Source: Psychrobacter faecalis | GTDB taxonomy: Bacteria > Pseudomonadota > Gammaproteobacteria > Pseudomonadales > Moraxellaceae | Length of the DNA: 64,000 bases | Direction: 5' to 3' | NCBI RefSeq assembly: GCF_016107575.1 | Contig: NZ_JABAST010000001.1 | Location: 124,001-188,000 of the forward strand | Program-made: the position numbers and the translations under genes | The notes under the pieces: generated by a model | Told to the model about the DNA's origin: nothing | Databases searched by the model: none | What the model saw: the letters and a program-made list of their open reading frames with translations, nothing else | In this document: in pieces, positions 5,636 to 40,543 of the stretch | Layout: every line of letters begins with the position of its first letter | Numbering within the stretch: the stretch's first letter is position 1

Positions 5636-5739
5636 GACTCCATCAGCACATCCTCGGCACACATTATAACTATTACCGTTGCTACCTTCCGGTCCTGGCG
5701 GGATTCATAGAACAATGTTGCGAGGCTACCAATGGAGCC
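5636..5739 (-). ncRNA. ffs: 4.5S RNA, small bacterial signal recognition particle RNA
   Basis: The minus strand carries CCAGGACCGGAAGGUAGCAA, the conserved apical domain of SRP RNA that binds Ffh and contacts FtsY. The ends GGCUCCAU (5739-5732) and AUGGAGUC (5643-5636) pair as an 8-bp closing helix, giving a hairpin of about 104 nt, the usual size of gammaproteobacterial 4.5S RNA. A U-run follows directly (complement of 5623-5633), and a hairpin terminator lies further on. The FtsY receptor is encoded near 59 kb. Exact ends are inferred from the closing helix. Confidence 0.93.
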
Positions 5740-16780: not shown

Positions 16781-16812
16781 GTTCAACTTGTCATTCAATT
16801 TTGGAATTCAAT

Positions 16813-18747
16813 ATGGCTTTATCACGTTCATCTTCGACCACCTATCTGCGGTTATGTATCTTAAGTGCTTTAGGCGTATATGCTATGAGTGCCACAGCAG
16901 CGACTGTTGATAGTAGCGTTATCAATCACAGCGAGCTGCCACAAGTTGAGCTTGATAAAATTGTCGTGACGGCGACGCGGACGCCAACTAAGACCAGTAA
17001 TGTCATTGCCCAAACTCGCGTGATTGATAAAGAAGAGCTACAACGTTATCAAGGTCAGACAGTATTAGAAGTTTTAAAGCGCCAGCCTGGTTTTAGTATT
17101 AAGCAAGATGGTGGCATGGGTAGCAGTAGTAACTTTTATGTGCGTGGTTATGATAGCAAACGTGTACTGATATTACTTGATGGCGTACGCTATGGCTCAA
17201 TGTCCACAGGTCAGCCTGCTTTAGCATTATTACCAACAAGCCAGATTGATCGCATTGAAATACTATACGGAGCATCAGGCTCTAGTATTTATGGCTCTGA
17301 TGCCATGGGCGGAGTTGTTCAAATTTTCACTAAAGGTAGCGATGTTCAACAAAGCAACTTTTCTGTCATTGCTGGCGTTGGTTCACACGATCATTACGTT
17401 TACGGTGCTAGTGCACAGTTTGCAAGTGCTCAAGGCAGCAAACTTAGCCTATCGGCTAGTCGTAACCAAACTAAGGGAATTAGTGCCCTTGAATACCAAT
17501 CTGGTAATAATAAAGATGATGATGGCTTTAAAAGCAATAACTTTGCACTAAATGCAAGCATTCCTCTAACACAAAATATTAGCATTGGTGCAACAGGTCT
17601 TTTTGCCAAATCAACGACTGAATTTGATGATTTTAATAATAGCGCCGATGCAGAAATCGAGCAGGAAAACGGTGCTGTATCCGCATTTTCACAATACGAA
17701 AACGATAAGCTGACAGTACGCTTATCAGCAGGTCAGAGTTTGGATAAGTTGGATAATAAAGTTGGTGATGAATTTGAAACCAAACAGAAACAGGTTAACT
17801 TGTTAACCACCTATCAGTTACCTATAGGACAAGTACAGGCTGGTGGGGAATGGCTAAAGCAAGAAGTAGACATCAATGATAATACGCCTGCTAACGGAGT
17901 CGATAGCTATAAAATTAATGAACGTAAAATAAATAGTGGTTTTTTGGGCTATCAAGTTAATGAAAGTAGACACGACTTTCAAGCGAATGTACGTTTTGAT
18001 GATAATTCTCAATTTGATGATGAAACCACGTTTGGTTTAGGCTATGCTTTTAAACTAATGCCTAACCTGCGTATTGGTACAAGCTTCGCTACGGGATATA
18101 AATCACCTTCTTTAAATGACTTATACGTTGAAAGCTCATATTATGTACCGAATGAAGATTTAAAAGTTGAGAAAAGCAAAAACATAGAGTTATTTGTTGA
18201 ATCAAACACCAATTTTCAAAATACACGGTTAACTGGCTTTAATGGTGATGTTGATAATCTCATTAACAATGAATTTGACGAAGCTACTGGAAAATTCCAA
18301 GCACGTAACGTGGATGAAGCTAAACTGTCAGGCTATAGCTTCACCTCGGACTGGCAATTGAGTAATGTTCTATTTGGTGGACATTATACATATACAAATG
18401 CCGAAAATCGTTCGGAAGTCAATAAAGGTAAACAGTTAGTATTTCGTCCTGAGCATACTGGGCTTATTTACGTAGGCTATCAAGCAACTGATTTCGATAT
18501 TCGTACCGAAGCCGAGTATATTGGCAAGATACATAACTCAGCAGACAATAGTACTTTTATGGATGACTATACACTACTTAATATTAGTGGTAATTATTAC
18601 CTTAGCCCAAATCTAACATGGACAAGCCGCATCAACAACTTAACTAACGTAGATTACTCAACTAATGAAATTTTTGGGGAATATGGTTCACGTTACAACC
18701 AAGATGGTATCAACTTCTTCACCTCACTCACCTATAACTGGTTTTAA
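16813..18747 (+). CDS. TonB-dependent outer-membrane receptor, BtuB-like
   Basis: 644 residues. Signal peptide (to about AMSATAA), TonB box region LDKIVVTATR, plug domain with QTVLEVLKRQPGFSIKQDGG, YVRGYDSKRVLILLDGVRYG and IEILYGASGSSIYGSDAMGG (the conserved plug end), then a 22-strand-type barrel ending in aromatic Phe (FFTSLTYNWF). The plug is closest in pattern to BtuB, the cobalamin receptor, but haem, zinc or siderophore receptors share it. The ATG at 16813 is chosen because GGAA lies 6 bases upstream; an in-frame TTG at 16801 is the alternative. Repeats upstream suggest metal or cofactor regulation. Confidence 0.87.
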   Translation: MALSRSSSTTYLRLCILSALGVYAMSATAATVDSSVINHSELPQVELDKIVVTATRTPTKTSNVIAQTRVIDKEELQRYQGQTVLEVLKRQPGFSIKQDGGMGSSSNFYVRGYDSKRVLILLDGVRYGSMSTGQPALALLPTSQIDRIEILYGASGSSIYGSDAMGGVVQIFTKGSDVQQSNFSVIAGVGSHDHYVYGASAQFASAQGSKLSLSASRNQTKGISALEYQSGNNKDDDGFKSNNFALNASIPLTQNISIGATGLFAKSTTEFDDFNNSADAEIEQENGAVSAFSQYENDKLTVRLSAGQSLDKLDNKVGDEFETKQKQVNLLTTYQLPIGQVQAGGEWLKQEVDINDNTPANGVDSYKINERKINSGFLGYQVNESRHDFQANVRFDDNSQFDDETTFGLGYAFKLMPNLRIGTSFATGYKSPSLNDLYVESSYYVPNEDLKVEKSKNIELFVESNTNFQNTRLTGFNGDVDNLINNEFDEATGKFQARNVDEAKLSGYSFTSDWQLSNVLFGGHYTYTNAENRSEVNKGKQLVFRPEHTGLIYVGYQATDFDIRTEAEYIGKIHNSADNSTFMDDYTLLNISGNYYLSPNLTWTSRINNLTNVDYSTNEIFGEYGSRYNQDGINFFTSLTYNWF

Positions 18748-18786
18748 GCTTATTTGGTAAGAACCAGAACTTATATATAAATAATC

Positions 18787-18814
18787 AAGGCTATCGATCG
18801 ATGGCCTTTTTTAT
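18787..18814 (+). terminator. Terminator after the TonB receptor
   Basis: AAGGCTATCG (18787-18796) folds on CGATGGCCTT (18799-18808) in a near-perfect palindrome with one G-T pair and a T-run after it. It insulates the receptor from the ahcY leader. Confidence 0.88.
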
Positions 18815-18848
18815 GACGCAAGCACTTACGATTTTCCGCAGCCAATAG

Positions 18849-18877
18849 GTGACAAATTAATCACCATCAATTACAAT
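18849..18877 (+). promoter_or_regulatory. Promoter of the ahcY leader
   Basis: GTGACA (18849-18854, one base off TTGACA) and TACAAT (18872-18877) are 17 bases apart. The predicted start, about 18884, coincides with the first paired base of the SAH riboswitch. An inverted repeat GGTGA/TCACC (18848-18852, 18861-18865) overlaps the -35. Confidence 0.65.
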
Positions 18878-18885
18878 AACGACCT

Positions 18886-19016
18886 CCGAGAGGTGTTGCA
18901 CCATAATAAATCTTATTGCATATAAGCTTTATCGCTTTGCAAATCATTTGTTATGTTAGGCTCGGTTAACTGTTTATGACCATTTTGGGTTACGAACAGC
19001 GCAAATAACGGCACCT
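18886..19016 (+). promoter_or_regulatory. S-adenosylhomocysteine (SAH) riboswitch
   Basis: CCGAG (18886-18890) pairs with CUCGG (18961-18965) as P1. The joining CCGAG-AGGUGUUGC and GUUAGG-CUCGG line up with the known aptamer's CGAG-GAGCGCUGC and CCAGG-CUCG. P2 is a 10-bp helix, 18902-18911 with 18946-18955. The pseudoknot P4 pairs AGGUGUU (18891-18897) with GGCACCU (19010-19016), where the known class has GAGCGCU/GGCGCUC: different bases, pairing kept. A hairpin CUGUU/AACAG (18970-18974, 18995-18999) fills the P1-P4 gap. It sits 42 bases before ahcY, the class's usual target, which it turns on when SAH builds up. Confidence 0.88.
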
Positions 19017-19058
19017 GCGTTTTTATTCTTTTTATCTATTAACTGATAGGAGCATATT

Positions 19059-20483
19059 ATGGACGCAGTGTCTAACACCCCATCTGCCCATATGATCGAC
19101 CCCTCTTTCACTGACTATAAAGTCGCCGACATTAGCCTTGCTGATTACGGTCGCCGTGAAATAACCCTAGCTGAAGCCGAAATGCCTGCCCTGATGGGTT
19201 TACGTCGTCGCTACGAAGCCGACCAGCCGCTTAAAGGCGCAAAAATCGCTGGCTGTATCCACATGACTATTCAGACGGCTGTTCTCATCGAGACGCTTGT
19301 CGCGCTAGGTGCAGAAGTACGCTGGACCTCATGTAACATCTTCTCAACCCAAGACCATGCTGCGGCAGCAATTGCTGCTGCTGGTATCTCTGTTTATGCT
19401 TGGAAAGGCGAAACCGAAGAAGAGTACGAGTGGTGCTTGCGTCAACAAATTCACGTTGGCGGTGAAGCGTCCGGTCAGCTTTGGGATGCAAACTTAATCT
19501 TGGACGACGGCGGTGATTTGACTGCTTTGATTCATAATGATTATGCCCAAATGCTTGATAATATCCATGGTATCTCCGAAGAAACTACTACAGGTGTCCA
19601 TCGTTTGGTTGAAATGCTGGGTAAAGGTACGCTAAAAGTACCGGCTATCAACGTCAACGATGCGGTTACCAAGTCTAAAAATGACAACAAATACGGCTGC
19701 CGTCATAGCTTAAATGACGCCATCAAACGTGCTACCGATATGTTCCTTGCCGGTCGCCGCGCTTTAGTCATCGGTTATGGCGATGTGGGTAAAGGCTCTA
19801 CCCAAAGCTTACGTCAAGAAGGCATGATTGTCCGTGTATCAGAAGTTGATCCTATCTGTGCTATGCAAGCCTGTATGGACGGCTATGAAGTATTGTCACC
19901 TTATATCAATGGCGATAACACTGGCGGCGCAGAAAACATCAACACTCGTCTATTAGAAGATACTGACTTAATTGTTACCACTACCGGTAACTATCACGTT
20001 TGTGACAAACATATGTTAGCCGCGCTAAAACCGGGTGCGGTCGTCTGTAATATCGGTCACTTCGATACCGAAATTGATACGCAATTTATGCGTGACAATT
20101 GGCGCTGGGTTGAGATTAAGCCACAAGTGCATCAAGTGTTCCGCTCGGATGACGAAAACGATTATTTGATTTTGCTTGCTGAAGGTCGCTTGGTGAACTT
20201 AGGTAATGCTACTGGTCACCCATCGCGCGTGATGGATGGCTCATTTGCTAACCAAGTATTGGCACAAATGTACTTGTTTGAAGAAAAATTCGCTGAGCTG
20301 CCAGTCGATGAGCGCTTTGATAATTTATACGTTAAAGTGTTACCGAAAAAACTCGATGAAGAAGTTGCGGCGGCAATGGTTGCAGGCTTTAACGGTACAT
20401 TGACGAAACTGACTGAAAAACAAGCCGAGTATCTAGGCGTACCTGTCGAAGGTCCGTTTAAGCCTGACGCTTATAAATACTAA
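19059..20483 (+). CDS. ahcY: Adenosylhomocysteinase
   Basis: 474 residues. It hydrolyses S-adenosylhomocysteine to adenosine and homocysteine, relieving inhibition of methyltransferases; cytosolic, NAD-dependent. [50 protein letters not shown], the NAD loop [15 protein letters not shown] and [10 protein letters not shown] are all intact, with C-terminal PFKPDAYKY matching the family's PxxYRY-like end. TAGGAG lies 5 bases before the ATG. It is followed 13 bases later by metF, so the two are co-transcribed behind the SAH riboswitch. Confidence 0.98.
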
Positions 20484-20496
20484 TAGGAGTCAGACT

Positions 20497-21345
20497 GTGA
20501 CTAAGCCTGCTTTCTCCTTCGAGTTTTTCCCAGCCAAAACCGAGCAAGGCCAAGAAAAGCTCCTCAGTACTTATGATGAGCTCAATAAGCTATCACCTGC
20601 GTATTTTTCGGTGACCTATGGGGCTGGCGGTTCAACCCGTGGCCGCACGCTTGATATCGTGCAAGCGTTGTGCGCGCGCGGTGACACAGATATTGCGCCG
20701 CATATGTCTTGTATTGGCGATGACAAAAGTCAAATCGCTGAACTACTCGATCTTTATAAAAGTTTGGGCATCACACGCTTGGTTGCCTTGCGTGGTGATT
20801 TACCGTCAGGTCAGGTCGGTATGGGAGAACTGCCGTTTGCCTTAGACTTAGTAAAGTTTATCCGCGAATATTCAGGCGATCACTTCCGTATCGAGGTCGC
20901 AGCCTACCCTGAGATGCATCCGCAAGCACGTAGCTTTGAATTTGATGTCGACAATTTGGTGAATAAATATCAGGCGGGCGCCAATGCGTCGATTACCCAG
21001 TTTTTCTATAATGCCGATAGCTATTTATATCTGCGTGACACCTTAGAAAAACGTGGTATTGACACGGTAGCGCAGCCTTTGGTCGCTGGCATCATGCCGA
21101 TTACCAACTCAAGCAATCTCGTACGCTTTGCTGATAGCTGTGGCGCTGATATCCCACGTTACGTGCGTAAGCGCTTGGCAGATTTTGGCGATGACCGTAC
21201 TGCTATCCGAGAGTTCGGCTTTGATGTCGTTTATCGTTTGTGCGAGCGTCTAATCTCTGAGGGCGTACCTGCCATGCATTTTTATAGCATGAATAAGGTT
21301 GAGCCAAATAAACGCTTAGTCGAAGCTTTAGGCTTGATTGCTTAA
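20497..21345 (+). CDS. metF: 5,10-Methylenetetrahydrofolate reductase
   Basis: 282 residues, normal length. It reduces methylene-THF to methyl-THF for methionine synthesis, FAD-dependent. FSFEFFPAKTEQG with its catalytic Glu, SVTYGAGGSTRGRTLD, VALRGDLP, VAAYPEMHPQARS and ASITQFFYNADSYLYL are the MetF landmarks. The start is GTG at 20497, set by AGGAG immediately after the ahcY stop. Sharing a transcript with ahcY places the methyl donor supply under SAH control. The terminator at 21371 ends the unit. Confidence 0.97.
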   Translation: MTKPAFSFEFFPAKTEQGQEKLLSTYDELNKLSPAYFSVTYGAGGSTRGRTLDIVQALCARGDTDIAPHMSCIGDDKSQIAELLDLYKSLGITRLVALRGDLPSGQVGMGELPFALDLVKFIREYSGDHFRIEVAAYPEMHPQARSFEFDVDNLVNKYQAGANASITQFFYNADSYLYLRDTLEKRGIDTVAQPLVAGIMPITNSSNLVRFADSCGADIPRYVRKRLADFGDDRTAIREFGFDVVYRLCERLISEGVPAMHFYSMNKVEPNKRLVEALGLIA

Positions 21346-21370: not shown

Positions 21371-21402
21371 GACTGGCGTTCTTAGGGGCGCCGGTCTTTT
21401 TT
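21371..21402 (+). terminator. Terminator of ahcY-metF
   Basis: GACTGGCG (21371-21378) pairs with CGCCGGTC (21389-21396), one G-T pair, followed by TTTTTT. Confidence 0.9.
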
Positions 21403-21518: not shown

Positions 21519-22409
21519 TTGCGACGTTTCTTTTATGCCACCAGTAGCGATAGCAGTGATAAAAATGCCCCAACCTGGCCACAACTGAGCACCTTAGCTA
21601 TCGGTGCTAACGTCGAGTTGACCGAAAGTATTGTCCATCATTGGTGCCGTGTACTGCGCGCCAATAACGGCGACACAGGTATTTTATTTGACGGTTTTGG
21701 CGGTGAATATCAGGTACAGCTGAATAGCATCAGTAAAAAACACGCCACTGCGACGTTATTATCACACCTAGAAACTGACCGTAACGCCGCTATTTTAACT
21801 AAAATCGGACTGGTGATGAGTCGCGGCGAGCGCATGGATTACGCCATTCAAAAATCCACTGAGCTTGGTGTCACCGCTATTCAACTGCTCGCCAGCCACC
21901 ACGGTGAGGTCAACCTAAAACCTGCGCAAGTGGAGAAAAAACTGGCACATTGGCAGCAAGTGGCGATTGCTGCCTGTGAGCAATGCGGCCTTAATCGCCC
22001 GCCCCTTATTCTCGCGCCATTATCGATTGATGATTGGCTGTCAAATATAGCGGCCAACAAAAACGACAAAGAGATGGCAGTTAGCCCAATCATCGCTGAG
22101 CTAAGTAAAGATGCCTACTATCAAGCATTACAGCAACCAGCAGATTTACGTCTGCAGCTAAGCGTGCCAGCAGCAGGACAGCCGCTGATGCCTGAGGCGC
22201 TGCCCGTCGTTTTGAAACAACAGACGCCTTATGTTGAATTACTAATCGGACCTGAGGGCGGGCTCAGCGCTGATGAATGCGCCAAAGCTGCTGACGTTGG
22301 TTTTGCAGCGTGGCAAATTGGACCAAGGGTGCTGCGTACCGAAACTGCGCCTGTCGTTGCCTTAGCGACATTGGGCTCATTGGCAACCCTGCACACCTTA
22401 CATATTTAG
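21519..22409 (+). CDS. rsmE: 16S rRNA m3U1498 methyltransferase
   Basis: 296 residues, SPOUT-class methyltransferase that modifies U1498 of 16S rRNA with SAM. N-terminal RRFFYAT, ESIVHHWCRVLRANNGD, LVMSRGERMDYAIQKSTELGV, AACEQCGLNRPP, and the knot LLIGPEGGLSADE and GPRVLRTETAPVVAL are diagnostic. The start is TTG at 21519, preceded by AGGAATAA and matching the family N-terminus. An insertion of about 40 residues (near VPAAGQPLMPEAL) lengthens it beyond the usual 240-250. Confidence 0.95.
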   Translation: MRRFFYATSSDSSDKNAPTWPQLSTLAIGANVELTESIVHHWCRVLRANNGDTGILFDGFGGEYQVQLNSISKKHATATLLSHLETDRNAAILTKIGLVMSRGERMDYAIQKSTELGVTAIQLLASHHGEVNLKPAQVEKKLAHWQQVAIAACEQCGLNRPPLILAPLSIDDWLSNIAANKNDKEMAVSPIIAELSKDAYYQALQQPADLRLQLSVPAAGQPLMPEALPVVLKQQTPYVELLIGPEGGLSADECAKAADVGFAAWQIGPRVLRTETAPVVALATLGSLATLHTLHI

Positions 22410-39619: not shown

Positions 39620-40543
39620 ATGAGTTTGCGCCATTTTTTGACCCTATCTGATTTAACCAAACAAGAACTAGAAAACCTCATCAAACGCGCTTGTGAATTG
39701 CGCAAAATGCAACATGCCGGCGAGATCTATCAGCCGTTTGTTGGGCGCACGCTTGGCATGATATTTGAGAAATCATCCACCCGTACGCGTATCTCATTTG
39801 AGACGGGCATGGGACAGTTTGGCGGCAGCGCTATCTTTTTATCGCCAAACGACACGCAGCTTGGGCGCGGTGAGCCGCTAGAAGATTCGGCGCGTGTTAT
39901 CTCAAGCATGGTCGATATCATTATGATTCGTACCTTTGGGCACGAAAAAGTTGAAACCTTTGCCGAATACTCTAGTGTGCCTATCATTAACGCCCTGACC
40001 GACGAATTTCATCCATGCCAGCTGCTTGCTGATATGCAAACGTATTATGAGCATCGTGGCAGTATCGAAAATAAAATCGTCACTTGGGTTGGCGATGGCA
40101 ACAATATGTGTGCCTCCTACATGCAAGCAGCCAATCAGTTTGGCTTTGAGCTGCGTGTTGCTGCCCCTTATGGTTTTGAGCCTGACCCTGAGCTGATGGA
40201 GCGCTTCTCACATTGCGTGAGCTTGGTCGAAGATGTGCAAGATGCAGCAAAAGATTCAAACTTAATCGTCACCGATGTCTGGGCGAGTATGGGACAAGAG
40301 TCTGAGCAAAACACTCGCGCACGCCGTTTTGCGCCCTATCAAGTTACGCCATCACTACTCGATAAAGCCGACCCCGAAGTGGTATTTATGCATTGCTTGC
40401 CTGCGCATCGCGGCGAAGAAATCTCTCACGATATGCTCGATGATCCGCGCTCAGTGGTCTGGGACGAAGCGGAAAACCGCTTACATGCGCAAAAAGCCTT
40501 GATGGAGTTTTTATTAAAAGACAAAATTAAGCTACCTGCCTAA
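39620..40543 (+). CDS. argF: Ornithine carbamoyltransferase
   Basis: 307 residues; makes citrulline from ornithine and carbamoyl phosphate in arginine synthesis. The carbamoyl-phosphate loop STRTR (53-57), [16 protein letters not shown], the [12 protein letters not shown] segment and [11 protein letters not shown] with its catalytic Cys are intact. The start ATG at 39620 is preceded by AGGAT. The terminator at 40611 is shared with the convergent rpiA. Catabolic ArcB is unlikely given the lack of arc genes nearby. Confidence 0.96.

Follow-up and report, generated by a model that had tools for sequence, protein, structure and literature searches.

A divergent SAH-type aptamer before ahcY-metF in Psychrobacter faecalis and a helix joining its pseudoknot strand to the first ahcY codons

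The ahcY-metF locus and its leader

The window analysed here is a stretch of 64,000 nucleotides from Psychrobacter faecalis. On its + strand lies ahcY, the gene for adenosylhomocysteinase (19059–20483; TIGR00936, 521.9 bits for a cut-off of 497.6), followed on the same strand by metF, the gene for methylenetetrahydrofolate reductase (20497–21345; TIGR00676, 286.8 bits, slightly below the cut-off of 293.7). The gap between the ahcY stop at 20483 and the metF start at 20497 is 13 bases. A motif scan places a terminator-like hairpin 3' of metF (21371–21396, + strand), of a kind that occurs 1.1 times on average in shuffled sequence. It sits between metF and a gene for the 16S rRNA methyltransferase RsmE (21519–22409, + strand; NF008692, 301.3 bits), which corresponds to COG1385. 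Because of this hairpin, co-transcription of rsmE with ahcY-metF is doubtful at this locus. Immediately upstream of the leader is the gene of a BtuB-like TonB receptor (16801–18747, + strand; TIGR01779, 334.8 bits, below the cut-off of 599.7), with a terminator-like hairpin downstream of it (18787–18808). That a B12 uptake gene adjoins methionine/SAH cycle genes may be meaningful. Elsewhere in the window there is a bacterial small SRP RNA (5638–5734, − strand, 71.7 bits).

The leader opens with a sigma-70-like promoter on the + strand (18849–18877), in which GTGACA (18849–18854) and TACAAT (18872–18877) are separated by 17 bases and together score 10 of 12 matches in a scan. A −35/−10 pair with this spacing had been proposed in an earlier sequence-only reading of the same DNA, and it is indeed present. 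Since shuffled versions of the region already contain a mean of 1.6 sites that score as well, the case for the promoter rests on conservation. TACAAT ends 5–8 bases 5' of the P1 block in 139 of the 175 distinct leaders described below, and some TANNAT stands at that position in 167. The 5' end of the transcript is predicted to lie at P1 (about 18884).

All parts of the aptamer follow on the + strand. Letters and pair counts define the 5' strand of P1 (18884–18890, with the CCGAG core at 18886–18890), the 5' strand of the P4 pseudoknot, AGGTGTT (18891–18897), the 3' strand of P1, CTCGG (18961–18965), and, together with a model match, the 3' strand of P4, GGCACCT (19010–19016). After the first P4 strand come the pocket bases G and C (18898–18899), which form part of an anchor expression, and a two-position junction under P2, whose 5' side (18900–18901, second position C) and 3' side (18956–18957, TT) were delimited by comparing leaders. 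P2 itself (18902–18955) is folded as an AU-rich stem of 10 pairs that encloses a further hairpin. The anchor letters AGG (18958–18960) begin with another pocket base, A 18958, and a predicted P3 hairpin of 6+5 pairs (11; 18970–18999) lies between P1 and P4. The anchor letters AAC (19007–19009) precede P4 and end with the pocket base C 19009. We take 18898, 18899, 18958 and 19009 to correspond to G15, C16, A29 and C46 of the R. solanacearum aptamer; the letters agree.

P1 (CCGAG/CTCGG), a 10-pair P2 and P4 (AGGTGTT/GGCACCT) were all found where the sequence-only reading had put them. The same reading called the long P2 and the additional hairpin between P1 and P4 unusual, but within the lineage they are usual. 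The P2 region measures 10–107 nt (median 54) in 85 CTGC-type leaders and 10–21 nt in 32 canonical leaders, and the linker from P1 to P4 measures 22–256 nt (median 41) in the former and 6–27 nt in the latter. In nine Moraxella or Psychrobacter leaders (L050, L180–L185, L188 and L190), 138–266 bases extend from AGGCT to the AACG that precedes the P4 3' strand, which is very long for a pseudoknot linker.

Homology with the SAH riboswitch class

Our comparison draws on several sets of leaders. Within the genus, ahcY was found in 104 of 105 genomes, and 103 leaders were collected (30 loci and 73 regions), leaving out genome G098, where the ahcY start lies at a contig end; the three anchors, with their pocket letters, are present in 103/103. 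The named records are the best 80 of 589 confirmed. Among 185 ahcY loci, 40 that lack the three anchors were dropped (all within L079–L120, from other bacteria), and 20 of 129 further Moraxellaceae loci were left unparsed by the first expression. Removal of duplicates reduced 254 parsed leaders to 175 distinct ones with a start (L245 has none); only identical sequences were merged, and some genomes occur twice in the set. The anchor expressions fix the pocket letters, the innermost part of P1 and P4 pair 6. The start-region expression restricts codon 2 mostly to a final C and fixes the GC of codon 3. No constraint was placed on GCG in the leader, on base 19016 of P4 or on the third position of codon 3. 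Since these expressions were used to gather the leaders, conservation at the fixed letters is partly by construction. The canonical set holds the 35 loci parsed out of 48, of which three are low-scoring, possibly misread, and kept in the pocket and junction counts. Canonical loci are the 30 best-scoring of a 369-genome sample plus the Moraxellaceae over the cut-off, and are not a random sample. One record in the collection (L048, BMPS01000002.1) is titled Streptomyces cinereus JCM 3040, yet its ahcY and leader group with Moraxella and Psychrobacter; it is probably mislabelled or contaminated.

The sequence-only reading suggested a search with Rfam model RF01057. That search gave a match to the leader of only 13.5 bits (E 6.1), below the gathering cut-off of 37, which is a listing rule and not a property of the RNA. 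With a score below the cut-off, we dropped RF01057 as sole evidence. At E ≤ 10 it matches 29 of 38 genomes of relatives, never above the cut-off, and most of these matches are noise, because 10 of 14 control genomes also give weak matches. Some of the weak matches directly precede ahcY, for example in G014, G011, G013, G015 and G007. Over the cut-off, RF01057 matches 27 of 299 Moraxellaceae genomes (136 at E ≤ 0.1, under strict filters), two of 16 mixed loci (Pseudomonas L117 and Alkanindiges L053) and none of 10 further Moraxellaceae loci. Five genomes (G191, G224, G236, G341 and G422) have two RF01057 matches each; in G191 (contig C3) and G422 (contig C1) the two lie about 1.3 kb apart on one contig.

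A new covariance model was trained on 28 leaders, drawn from Acinetobacter, Alkanindiges, Moraxella and further Moraxellaceae, from Pseudomonas and from canonical members. It contains no Psychrobacter, although two of its 28 rows (L048 and L049) are Moraxella-type relatives of Psychrobacter. In the window it matches 18884–19016 with 33.9 bits (E 1.5e-6). Searched against the whole 3.08 Mb genome it returns this site at E 6.8e-5 and no second match at E ≤ 10. It detects 38 of the 38 held-out Psychrobacter loci tried (24.4–48.4 bits), which were picked from the 103 and leave out most of the leaders with very long linkers, and it matches none of 10 ahcY loci without anchors from other bacteria. 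A second window match of model R1 at 40177–40210 (E 1.4) was taken as chance. A second SAH switch in the genome was also considered and rejected: a one-mismatch site on contig C31 lacks the remaining anchors, and the model finds none. The SAM/SAH riboswitch RF01727, which binds SAH and precedes metK in Rhodobacterales (PMC2864571, in part), is absent from the 12 matches obtained at E ≤ 10 within 18700–19200.

In 175 of the 175 distinct leaders that carry the anchors all seven P4 pairs are standard, a count to be read with the fact that the anchors fix pair 6 and restrict the other pairs without forcing them. Pairs 0, 2, 3 and 5 change on both sides (A-U/G-C, G-C/A-U, U-A/C-G and U-A/C-G); mismatches at these four pairs were possible under the expressions, and none was seen. 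P1 also changes on both sides, with C-G in 90 leaders and U-A in 83 at one position, and C-G/U-A and G-C/A-U at two others; pairing is poor at the two outermost positions of P1. The sequence-only reading had named a lack of compensatory P4 changes in relatives as evidence against itself, and such changes are present at four of seven pairs. Its own comparison of the window's P4 with family sequences stood in part. It was right that every pair is kept (two of them as U.G), but both strands differ at only three of the seven pairs; one pair has changed on one side (C-G to U.G) and three are unchanged.

In the known aptamer, SAH is contacted by G15, C16 and A29, and C46 lies beside the ligand tail (PMC7057144, in part). 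These reported bases are present in the window and in 103/103 genus leaders, and the RF01057 consensus carries them too; their invariance across the wider leader set is partly by construction, because the anchors contain the pocket letters. The window also has the other features of RF01057, namely P1 and P2 with the conserved CCGAG / AGGCUCGG frame, a P4 pseudoknot that joins the strand following P1 to the distal AACGGC.. strand, and a position before SAH-cycle genes, here ahcY-metF. Taken together, the held-out model, the covariation of P1 and P4 in 175 distinct leaders and the pocket bases support the homology with SAH riboswitches that the sequence-only reading proposed, and 18849–19016 is best described as a promoter and a divergent SAH-type aptamer before ahcY-metF.

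How divergent it is can be seen beside RF01057. The two are alike in P1, P2, the P4 pseudoknot, the GC/AGG/AAC core, the position before ahcY and the predicted ON logic, whereas the leader scores below the Rfam cut-off, has a long AU-rich P2 and a long linker, and has its P4 sequence replaced. A further difference lies in the junction between pocket and P2, where the A.C/G.U of the class has given way to pyrimidine pairs. Canonical aptamers have A.C (26), G.U (5), A-U (3) or G-C (1) here (n = 35), with A or G at the second 5' position in 35/35; this position is C in the window, which forms C.U instead of the canonical pair. The canonical pair is not known to define the class. All CCGCG-type leaders (83/83) show A.C at the junction, and C.U (71) or U.U (10) accounts for 81 of the 85 leaders of the CTGC type.

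A helix between the pseudoknot strand and the first ahcY codons

The 3' strand of P4 and its four next bases, GGCACCUGCGU (19010–19020), are complementary to ACGCAGUGUC (19063–19072) with one bulged base. In the DNA, the two + strand segments read GGCACCTGCGT in the leader, where 19010–19016 are shared with P4, and ACGCAGTGTC inside ahcY codons 2–5. We refer to their pairing as the anti-start helix. It is included in the minimum-energy fold of the leader, where the Shine-Dalgarno AGGAG (19048–19052) is paired with a U run in an inner hairpin (19029–19052, + strand) and the AUG is enclosed as well. The predicted energies are −12.1 kcal/mol for the anti-start helix and −7.8 kcal/mol for P4. The hairpin alone reaches −19.5 kcal/mol, a modest gain over dinucleotide shuffles (z −1.83; 8 of 200 shuffles did as well).

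Stronger evidence comes from covariation across the start codon, at the pair 19016–19067. Leaders with CUGCG go with GCA as the Ala-3 codon in 83/83 distinct cases, and leaders with CCGCG go with GCG in another 83/83. Two CUGCU leaders (L171 and L172) have GCA and have lost the loop-side core pair; seven leaders without the CTGC or CCGCG motif use GCT (5), GCC (1) or GCA (1). A blind scan of 1488 window pairs in 167 leaders (L311 was too short and was dropped) found the anti-start pairing as the sole one kept in at least 90%, the next best being kept in 84 of 167. All five core positions are Watson-Crick in 165 of 167 leaders; permutations, which ignore relatedness, gave a mean of 123 and a maximum of 134.

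In an AhcY tree of 43 rows, supported branches force at least two changes of the pair between leader and codon 3. One change separates Psychrobacter and Moraxella from the rest and the other is in A. qingfengensis alone, so that two evolutionary events underlie the covariation of this pair. In A. qingfengensis codon 3 has the third base of the other clade, matching its own leader; the start pairing is matched, and a G.U remains at the first pair of P4. A search for similar cases with CATCTGCG..ATGARCGC matched 15 of 175 Acinetobacter genomes, and judged by the matched letters only the match in G659 is an ahcY leader; no further leader of the A. qingfengensis type came up in these genomes.

Codon 3 stands alone in having a third base that is fixed yet different between the clades, out of 294 conserved degenerate AhcY codon columns compared across 42 coding sequences. 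Codons 2, 3, 4 and 5 are without synonymous variation in 37 distinct Psychrobacter coding sequences, a behaviour seen in 43 of 424 conserved columns. In codon 5 the third base lies outside the helix, and it is variable elsewhere in the genus. These 37 sequences come from 38 Psychrobacter loci, beside 27 from 27 loci of the other clade, and the expression used to collect them demands a codon 2 ending in C and GCA or GCG as codon 3, with no leader evidently lost.

Sequence comparison shows that the ahcY-metF message has at its 5' end a homologue of the SAH riboswitch aptamer, together with a helix that joins 19010–19020 to ahcY codons 2–5. Acinetobacter leaders have the corresponding CCGCG/CGCGG pairing, and L058 also has GGCAU/AUGCU. 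In a set of 31 canonical leaders, the sequence downstream of P4 is likewise complementary to the Shine-Dalgarno or start region, so that the Moraxellaceae arrangement seems to elaborate on a design shared by the whole class. These are 31 of the 32 better canonical leaders, some of whose starts (L226, L232) look wrong. Their longest complementary run averages 5.26 bases against 4.49 when permuted (0 of 500 as good), none of 200 permutations equals the observed energies, and the best run overlaps the start codon in 16 of 31.

A proposed ON switch and its alternatives

The anti-start helix and P4 are mutually exclusive, because both need 19010–19016. We are fairly confident, judging from sequence and predicted structure, that the leader is a divergent SAH-responsive ON switch acting on the translation of ahcY. 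In the absence of SAH, the anti-start helix would form and bury the Shine-Dalgarno and the AUG. With SAH bound, the pseudoknot would be stabilised, P4 would keep its 3' strand, and the start region would be freed for AhcY to be made; SAH would therefore induce its own hydrolase. The ON direction follows from the shared strand, since a ligand that favours P4 would free the start, and a default OFF state fits the predicted energies, −12.1 for the anti-start helix against −7.8 for P4. Codons 2–5 of ahcY would serve as the switching strand, partly imitating the 5' strand of P4. The weakest step of this proposal concerns metF, which would come under the same control through translational coupling or message stability; its co-regulation would fit the gene order.

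One could also argue that the Psychrobacter aptamer has a shifted ligand balance, with codons 2–5 still acting as the switching strand. This reading is drawn from the junction: almost all of the CTGC group has moved to C.U or U.U there, with no change in the pocket. An altered junction beside the pocket could weaken binding. The aptamer might bind SAH with a different affinity, accept SAM or be adapted to low temperature, as a natural variant class. We regard such a shift as unlikely.

Another option is that SAH acts on transcription, the alternative fold being a terminator or a Rho-dependent stop and not a translation block. Many Psychrobacter leaders do have a U-rich TTTTTATTCTTTTT after the 3' strand of P4. 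However, in a consensus scan with loops of 3–8 the + strand from P4 to ahcY showed nothing terminator-like, and we dropped an intrinsic terminator as the platform. Moreover, Acinetobacter leaders keep the start-codon pairing without a U run directly after P4, and the covarying partner sits within the coding sequence, all of which makes a transcriptional switch quite unlikely.

About as improbable, in our view, is that the Psychrobacter aptamer has decayed or changed its ligand, with the start-codon hairpin left as a constitutive brake on ahcY. The altered junction in 81 of 85 CTGC-type leaders and the RF01057 score below the cut-off would fit this idea. It is at odds with the anchors and pocket bases kept in 103/103 genus leaders, with the unchanged gene context and with P1 and P4 themselves, because compensatory changes would not maintain these helices in a dead aptamer.

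The anti-start helix might instead be incidental, codons 2–5 being conserved through constraints on the protein or on translation initiation. Early codons are often constrained, and N termini of the MNAV or MDAV kind are frequent among the AhcY proteins compared. Yet codon 3 ends in the base that matches the leader in 166/166 YGCG leaders, the isolated A. qingfengensis case matches as well, and the seven leaders without either motif mostly use other Ala codons (GCT in five, GCC in one, GCA in one). Hence, we consider this explanation very unlikely. That the leader merely resembles a riboswitch by chance, as RF01057 alone might suggest with its E of 6.1 and its weak matches in 10 of 14 controls, has a negligible probability given the held-out model, the 103/103 genus leaders and the covariation.

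The proposed translational ON switch has parallels in known systems. The SAH riboswitch class was reportedly described by Wang and co-workers in 2008 and by Edwards and co-workers in 2010. ON logic has been predicted for it (PMC7057144, in part), and our proposal differs in a platform that extends into ahcY codons 2–5. In translational riboswitches such as V. vulnificus add, the ligand frees the ribosome-binding site and AUG from a sequester hairpin (PMC10907184, in part). The proposed release of RBS and AUG is alike, but in this leader the start would be sequestered by a strand of the aptamer's own pseudoknot, paired with coding sequence. Leyn et al. 2014 (PMC4239095, in part) described the core SAH regulon as consisting of ahcY and metF; for the Moraxellaceae, they reported SAH motifs in two of four genomes (Table 1) and COG1385 (rsmE) as a further member of the regulon. 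Co-regulation of metF, which the sequence-only reading had inferred, was therefore already on record. In the consulted parts of that paper, all main text, these switches are given no expression platform, and neither 'Psychrobacter' nor 'Acinetobacter' is mentioned in the main text.

Already known, as far as the main text of PMC4239095 goes, are thus the class, its place before ahcY-metF and its occurrence in Moraxellaceae with rsmE in the regulon. In the open-licence literature searched, no paper combines 'SAH riboswitch' with 'Psychrobacter', and no description of the anti-start helix was found. Within that literature, what appears to be new is the set of Psychrobacter members with their junction, along with a covarying helix that reaches into the coding sequence.

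Our study adds a large set of SAH switches that the Rfam model, with 27 of 299 Moraxellaceae genomes over the cut-off, mostly overlooks. The altered junction supplies a series of natural mutants in which SAH recognition can be studied. The covariation across the start codon suggests how SAH binding could be coupled to expression, namely by borrowing the pseudoknot strand to lock the first codons. If this is true, an RNA switch would exert selection on synonymous third bases in ahcY.
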